NCBI RefSeq assembly: GCF_009733815.1
Contig: NZ_WNXY01000001.1
Span: forward strand, 372,001-436,000
Origin: Pseudactinotalea suaedae
Lineage (GTDB): Bacteria > Actinomycetota > Actinomycetes > Actinomycetales > Beutenbergiaceae
DNA: 64,000 nucleotides
Direction of reading: 5' to 3'
Position numbers and translations under genes: made by a program. The notes beneath the pieces were generated by a model. It was not told where the DNA came from and ran no database searches. It was given only the letters and a program-made list of their open reading frames with translations. Of this stretch, positions 13,675 to 64,000 are shown one piece after another; within the stretch, counting starts at the first letter, position 1; each line of letters begins with the position of its first letter.

Positions 13675-13994
13675 CGACAGACCGACCGGCTGCGCCCGGA
13701 TCGCCCTCGAGCGGTCCGGGCGCAGCCGCGTGCCGGGTTCTCCATGGCGCCGCCGGTCAGGGGTGTGCCGCGCAGCTCGGCCACCGCCTCGGCGACCAGT
13801 GGGCCGCGACGCACCGCCCACTCGAGCACGACGGCGGCCCGTGGCTCGGCGGCAGCACGGCGCTGACCTTCTGCGGCCAGTGCGGTCAAGGGCTGGCGCC
13901 CTCGCTCAGTGGCGCCACGCGCCTGACGAATACGTGGAGCTCCGCCGGTCCAGTCGAGTGTCCGAGGGGGGACTTGAACCCCCACGCCCGTTAA
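13671..13994 (+). CDS. Possible small Cys-containing protein coupled to the protease
   Basis: An ATG overlaps the protease stop codon in ATGA. The frame of 107 codons keeps G/C-rich third positions for about 80 codons and contains LTFCGQCGQGLAP, a zinc-ribbon-like CxxC, plus two other Cys. Against it: the last 12 codons run through the tRNA-Leu gene on the opposite strand, giving a PRGDLNPHAR-type ending that is a common artefact. It may be a real gene with a chance extension or no gene at all. Confidence 0.35.
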   Translation: MTTDRPAAPGSPSSGPGAAACRVLHGAAGQGCAAQLGHRLGDQWAATHRPLEHDGGPWLGGSTALTFCGQCGQGLAPSLSGATRLTNTWSSAGPVECPRGDLNPHAR

Positions 13995-14043
13995 GGGCAC
14001 TAGCACCTCAAGCTAGCGCGTCTGCCATTTCCGCCACCCGGAC
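13959..14043 (-). tRNA. tRNA-Leu (anticodon GAG)
   Basis: 85 bases. Acceptor GTCCGGG pairs with CTCGGAC, with discriminator A. The anticodon stem CTAGC/GCTAG encloses TTGAGGT, giving GAG. The long variable arm (TGCCCTTAACGGGCG) and the T-arm GGGGG-TTCAAGT-CCCCC are intact. This is a normal class II leucine tRNA without encoded CCA. Confidence 0.95.
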
Positions 14044-62973: not shown

Positions 62974-63172
62974 GGTGGTGCTCCTTCTGTCGTGTCGGGC
63001 CTCGCTCCGAGGCGGCGAGCCCAGCAGGAAGTCGACCAGCAGATGGTGAACGAGACGCGTCCGGCAGGCGACCTGCGGCTGCCCGGCCCCGTGCCGGCTG
63101 ACCGCGAGAACGGCAGTTTCCGCCGAGTGCGGCAGGCGCTGGCGGGTGTGACGGTGCGGTCACGTCACAGGG

Positions 63173-63246
63173 TGCCCCGGGTGGGATTCGAACCCACACT
63201 GGATGGTGTTTGAGACCACTGCCTCTGCCGGTTGGGCTACCGGGGC
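63173..63246 (-). tRNA. tRNA with anticodon CAA (Leu) but a short variable loop
   Basis: 74 bases. Acceptor GCCCCGG/CCGGGGC with discriminator A; D-stem GCCC/AGGC with three pairs; anticodon stem GTGGT/ACCAT around CTCAAAC, giving CAA. The variable loop is only CCAGT, and the T-arm is GTGGG-TTCGAAT-CCCAC. Anticodon and A73 say leucine, yet the class II long arm of leucine tRNAs is absent. CCA is not encoded. Confidence 0.85.
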
Positions 63247-63386: not shown

Positions 63387-64000
63387 GTGACCGAAGCCAA
63401 GCCGAAGAAGACCGCGAAGGACTCCGAGCCGCTGCTCCTGGACCTCGACGAGGCCCTGCAGCGAGAGCCCGAGACCGAGCGCGAGCCGCGTGACCGCCGT
63501 ACCGTCGTCGTCGCCGAGGACGAGCCGCTGATCCGCATGGACGTCGTCGAGACGCTCAACGAGGCGGGCTTCGACGTCGTCGGCGAGGCCGGTGACGGCG
63601 AGACGGCGGTCCGGCTCGCGACCGAGCTCGAGCCCGACATCGTGGTCATGGACGTCAAGATGCCCGTCCTCGACGGCATCACCGCCGCCGAGCGCATCAC
63701 CAAGGCCCGGATCGCCCCGGTCGTGCTGCTGACCGCGTTCTCGCAGACCGAGCTCGTCGAGCGTGCCCGTGACGCCGGCGCCATGGCGTACGTCGTCAAG
63801 CCCTTCACGCCCGCCGACCTGCTGCCGGCACTGGAGATCGCGCTGCACCGCCACCGCGAGATCGCCGCGCTCGAGGCGGAGGTGGCCGACCTCACCGACC
63901 GGTTCGAGACCCGCAAGCGCGTCGACCGCGCCAAGGGCCTGCTGATGACGCGGATGGGTCTGTCGGAGCCGGAGGCCTTCCGCTGGATCCAGAAGACCTC
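63387..64000 (+). CDS. pdtaR: PdtaR-like response regulator with ANTAR RNA-binding domain, 3' end beyond window
   Basis: 204 codons are present. Residues 1-38 are a charged N-terminal extension. The receiver domain has VVVAEDEPLIRMD, phosphoacceptor Asp89 (IVVMDVKMPVLDG), VLLTAFS and Lys138 (AYVVKPF). The ANTAR domain begins at about 180 (RVDRAKGLLMTRMGLSEPEA) and is cut by the window end. ANTAR proteins bind paired hexaloops in RNA and prevent termination; the mycobacterial homologue pairs with the kinase PdtaS, not seen here. GTG is leaderless behind TACGCT (63375-63380). Confidence 0.94.
   Translation, partial: MTEAKPKKTAKDSEPLLLDLDEALQREPETEREPRDRRTVVVAEDEPLIRMDVVETLNEAGFDVVGEAGDGETAVRLATELEPDIVVMDVKMPVLDGITAAERITKARIAPVVLLTAFSQTELVERARDAGAMAYVVKPFTPADLLPALEIALHRHREIAALEAEVADLTDRFETRKRVDRAKGLLMTRMGLSEPEAFRWIQKT

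Follow-up and report, generated by a model that had tools for sequence, protein, structure and literature searches.

Leucine tRNA Without the Long Variable Arm

Can a tRNA that reads the leucine codon UUG and lacks the long variable arm of class II tRNAs be an ordinary leucine tRNA? The question is raised by a gene in the window, the 64,000-nucleotide stretch of Pseudactinotalea suaedae DNA analyzed here, in which ARAGORN called a tRNA-Leu(CAA) on the minus strand at 63171–63246. The tRNA body, GCCCCGGTAGCCCAACCGGCAGAGGCAGTGGTCTCAAACACCATCCAGTGTGGGTTCGAATCCCACCCGGGGCA, occupies 63173–63246 and has 74 nt (nucleotides 1–73 of tRNA numbering), A73 being at 63173; positions 63171–63172 encode the CC of the 3′ end, and the final A is not encoded. 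The gene is no chance match, as the Rfam tRNA model (RF00005) gave it 57.3 bits with an E value of 1.6e-11. ARAGORN placed the anticodon CAA, which reads UUG, at 63210–63212. The variable loop, CCAGT at 63198–63202, is only 5 nt long, and its U48 pairs with A15 (Levitt pair). The D-arm, GCCCAACCGGCAGAGGC at 63221–63237, resembles that of long-arm leucine tRNAs: its stem has 3 bp (GCC/GGC) rather than the usual 4 bp, C13 and A22 are unpaired, and A14A15, GG and CAGA are present. An earlier note on this DNA had read a five-base variable loop, the anticodon CAA and A73 from the letters, and ARAGORN and the sequence agree with it; the leucine tRNA at 13959–14043 (minus strand), which it had set against this gene, is tRNA-Leu(GAG) as called by ARAGORN and indeed has a normal long variable arm. 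The tRNA-Leu(CAA) is a leucine tRNA though not of class II, combining a leucine anticodon and the discriminator A73 with A15–U48, G18G19 and A20a within a leucine-type D-arm. RNA energy folding of single tRNAs gave no cloverleafs, even for the normal Leu(GAG), and was left out of the evidence. No sigma-70-like promoter was found near the gene, which carries little weight in a GC-rich genome.

The P. suaedae genome (4.54 Mb, 99.99% complete) gave 45 tRNA matches, and their re-annotation identified five leucine tRNAs: CAG, GAG and UAG with long arms, and CAA and UAA with five-base loops. The UUR codons are thus read by two tRNAs only, both of them short, and none of the 45 matches is a long-arm tRNA for these codons. 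The second, normal tRNA-Leu(CAA) that the earlier note suggested looking for is absent. Only one leucyl-tRNA synthetase gene, a full-length one, is present in the genome, and the three other genomes tested likewise have one.

Leucine Signature and Selection

In long-arm leucine tRNAs, the D-arm has a stem of 3 bp, an unpaired position 13 opposite A22, A14A15 and GGYAGA, and the short tRNAs share this layout. We defined a leucine signature as a 3-bp D-stem, unpaired 13/A22, A14, GG[CTA]AGA and A73, and scored it on all unique tRNAs fetched. The signature was found in 177 of 183 short leucine tRNAs and 25 of 28 long ones, and in none of the 87 tRNAs of other isotypes. When trained on long-arm leucine tRNAs, a simple position-weight isotype test gave no clear assignment of the short ones to leucine; its training sets were tiny and short leucine tRNAs dominated its background, and the signature count was used instead. 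By the same weights and their tiny training sets, the short tRNA body beyond the D-arm and A73 is not leucine-like.

The D-stem varies among the short tRNAs, appearing as GCC/GGC, CTC/GAG, TCC/GGA, GTC/GAC, TTC/GAA and GAC/GTC. As these changes are compensatory, the short family is under selection as a tRNA and not decayed. C13, A14 and GG.AGA are near-constant, and A15–U48 has changed to G15–C48 in two lineages. Taken from sequence comparison, the tRNA-Leu(CAA) is almost certainly a functional elongator that belongs to a distinct short-arm leucine family and decodes UUG as leucine.

Meaning of UUG Codons

For the codon itself, we turned to conserved genes of the pdtaR–polA region and demanded an excess of third-position differences, which keeps out the wrong frames of GC-rich DNA. 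Where columns were clear (at least 70% conserved), UUG fell on leucine at 73 of 82. When the genomes were divided by their CAA tRNA, 79 of 95 UUG codons were at leucine columns where it is short, and 18 of 22 where it is long. Most exceptions lay at methionine columns, of which one is probably a start site; a single phenylalanine column fell in a short, doubtful frame. The leucine columns, a comparative indication that the codon is read as leucine, argue strongly against UUG having been systematically reassigned away from leucine. The suggestion that the molecule is charged with another amino acid finds no support, given the leucine columns and the D-arm and A73 signature.

Distribution Across Actinobacteria

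The D-arm motif of both short tRNAs was present in 37 of 39 near relatives. With a pattern for UUR leucine tRNAs of either type that shows their length, most families of the order yielded short UAA tRNAs, and the CAA form differed by family, some having short and others long tRNAs; the class as a whole gave the same picture. Among 198 genomes sampled from the phylum, a stricter pattern for the short form matched 43, which is a lower bound, and the reversed control pattern gave no match. The carriers include Mycobacterium, Nocardia, Gordonia, Rhodococcus, Corynebacterium, Pseudarthrobacter, Cellulomonas, Cellulosimicrobium and Amycolatopsis, and relatives of Arthrobacter and Cellulomonas also lie within the range of the short type in the class Actinomycetes. 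Both UUR tRNAs are short in four genomes (G075, G110, G132 and G186) that group with Mycobacterium in the PdtaR tree. The pooled unique UUR tRNAs numbered 170 short vs. 26 long, a count biased by one collection scan that asked for the short form. Judged by these patterns, the short-arm leucine tRNA is widespread in the class Actinomycetes, a normal but little-discussed type, and the suggestion of a shared oddity in the earlier note is borne out by the relatives and the class-wide patterns.

A genome of the same genus has one further short match that resembles a tRNA (G001:C7:1032029-1032068); its anticodon is CAA, its D-arm is TAGCCCAGCCGGCAGAGGCA, and it may lie on a mobile element.

Probable Exchange of Short and Long Forms Beside pdtaR

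Divergent from the tRNA, a gene for a pdtaR-like ANTAR response regulator starts at 63387 on the plus strand and extends past the window end at 64000. The earlier note proposed to check conservation beside pdtaR, and we found the neighborhood kept across the class: Leu(CAA) adjoins pdtaR, usually divergently and 100–300 bp off, whether the tRNA is short or long, and the site is nearly always occupied by Leu(CAA). Placed on a quick PdtaR tree (89 rows), the short or long state requires at least 16 changes, at least 9 of which are forced by well-supported branches. In one genus (g28), five genomes have a short and two a long Leu(CAA) at this site. Sister genomes also differ in the form found beside pdtaR, namely G343 and G372 (g231) and G325 and G385 (g216), which makes them good pairs for studying the exchange.

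These changes could have arisen by in-place deletion of the variable arm from a resident long-arm Leu(CAA) in the lineage, an account that concerns the origin only and leaves leucine function normal. The single site shared by short and long forms fits it, as do the similar GCCCCG acceptor stems of short and long tRNAs in one family (f1). However, the two forms differ in a coordinated set of features: short Leu(CAA) has A9, a GCC/GGC D-stem and C13, and long Leu(CAA) has G9, GCG/CGC and G13. The short CAA features (A9, GCC/GGC and C13) are moreover common to short UAA tRNAs, and G343 and G372 differ over the whole tRNA body, which points to gene replacement. Because changes in the D-arm come with changes at position 9 and in the variable region, and in some cases throughout the tRNA body, we infer from the sequences that tRNA genes were more likely exchanged than merely shortened by loss of the arm, and in-place deletion is unlikely. 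On this view, short and long-arm Leu(CAA) would have displaced each other repeatedly beside pdtaR, and what was swapped was probably either the entire tRNA gene or the D-arm together with the variable region. A further reading, rather improbable, is that Actinomycetes run the short (UUR) and long (CUN) types in one cell under one synthetase and that the repeated exchange at this site has been selected, for example by tRNA-attacking toxins, phage factors or modification enzymes that distinguish the forms.

The position beside a response regulator gene, from which the tRNA is divergent, also bears on a regulatory reading, in which the tRNA is deliberately poorly charged and acts as a switch for UUG-containing genes as Streptomyces bldA does for UUA. 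The class offers this precedent of a rare-codon leucine tRNA with a regulatory role (PMC4932002, PMC12772374), but housekeeping genes in this region also use UUG, and pdtaR keeps its neighborhood with a short or a long tRNA, so nothing links the arrangement to the short form in particular. We consider such a switch very unlikely. The purely regulatory role raised in the earlier note is likewise unsupported, since the two short tRNAs are the only UUR tRNAs in the genome and Leu(CAA) is nearly constant beside pdtaR.

A derivative of a CAU tRNA (elongator tRNA-Met or tRNA-Ile2) that is not charged with leucine would explain two features: a CAU tRNA of Met/Ile2 type in the same genome (G000:C13:164323-164396) has exactly the same acceptor stem (GCCCCGG) and T-stem, and whole-body position weights often bring short UUR tRNAs closest to Lys, Glu or Ile, ahead of long-arm Leu. 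A human precedent has been described (PMC8450103), but the leucine-type D-arm with C13 and A22 unpaired in place of the 4-bp GCTC/GAGC of the CAU tRNA, the conservation of the short family across the class with compensatory changes, the leucine columns of UUG and the lack of any other CAA tRNA in the genome make this derivation extremely improbable. Past gene conversion between the two genes is a possible source of the shared stems.

Charging and Known Systems

With a functional leucine tRNA as the preferred reading, its charging can be related to the work on Escherichia coli, where leucine identity depends on A73, A15–U48, G18G19 and A20a, the long arm is unneeded, and truncated leucine tRNAs without it remain charged (Giege and Eriani review, PMC9976931). 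The single leucyl-tRNA synthetase gene and these arm-independent determinants suggest that one enzyme charges both tRNA types, the short (UUR) and long (CUN) tRNAs being charged side by side. The short tRNA would be recognized via A73, U8–A14, A15–U48, G18G19 and A20a, and its leucylation would not require the variable arm. The poor charging raised in the earlier note is accordingly unsupported.

The window tRNA shares with the E. coli-type class II tRNA-Leu the D-arm (3-bp stem, unpaired 13 and A22, A14A15 and GGYAGA), A15–U48, A73, a leucine anticodon and a single leucyl-tRNA synthetase, but class II tRNA-Leu has a 13–17-nt arm, G9 and G13 where the window tRNA has a 5-nt loop, A9 and C13. 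Animal mitochondrial tRNA-Leu(UUR) also lacks the long variable arm and has leucine identity set by A73 and A14 (PMC9976931); it is, however, structurally relaxed and served by a mitochondrial synthetase, whereas the window tRNA is a regular bacterial cloverleaf found beside class II CUN tRNAs. A human tRNA with a CAA anticodon and no variable arm (PMC8450103) is, unlike the window tRNA, a recent anticodon mutant of tRNA-Met with low or no expression and no conservation. In M. tuberculosis, a long variable loop is listed for Leu-2, -3 and -5 only, which implies short loops like the present one in the other leucine tRNAs, and the short ones are undiscussed (PMC11541572).

The same review names animal mitochondria as the only exception to the rule that leucine tRNAs have the long arm (PMC9976931). 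The short family contradicts this rule in a bacterial class that is large and counts Mycobacterium and antibiotic producers among its members. Individual short tRNA genes are not new, as tRNA databases probably contain such genes, but we found no description of the short UUR family as such in the open-access literature, and the class-wide split between UUR and CUN tRNAs and the repeated exchange at one locus look undescribed. The short leucine tRNAs are natural substrates on which to test whether leucyl-tRNA synthetase, a drug target, recognizes a tRNA independently of the arm, and the site adjacent to pdtaR is a clean locus for studying how essential tRNA genes change structural class. In annotation tools, short leucine tRNA genes should not be flagged as isotype conflicts.

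Short Leucine tRNAs in tRNA Arrays and Metagenomes

A short-loop tRNA-Leu(UAG) has been reported in Mycobacterium tRNA arrays (PMC6582537). It is actinobacterial and has a short variable loop like the window tRNA, but it belongs to a cluster of tRNA genes and is an additional copy, while the window tRNA is the sole chromosomal reader of UUG. Many leucine tRNAs of the tRNA arrays that we examined have the same D-arm as the window tRNA. Arrays with short-arm leucine tRNAs were seen in Moorena bouillonii (L124), Dactylosporangium (L111) and the MAGs L150, L158 and L171; many of these tRNAs have the D-arm AGCCCAA..GGCAGAGGC, and they cover several leucine anticodons, including those for CUN. Such arrays are possibly a mobile source of the short type.

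Short Leu(UAA) tRNAs with a different acceptor stem were present in eight MAG contigs (L071, L090, L068, L077, L113, L127, L147 and L172), several of them beside tRNA-Cys. The MAGs are labeled Rokubacteria, Deltaproteobacteria, Planctomycetota, Acidimicrobiia or Actinobacteria, and the short form may extend beyond Actinomycetes.
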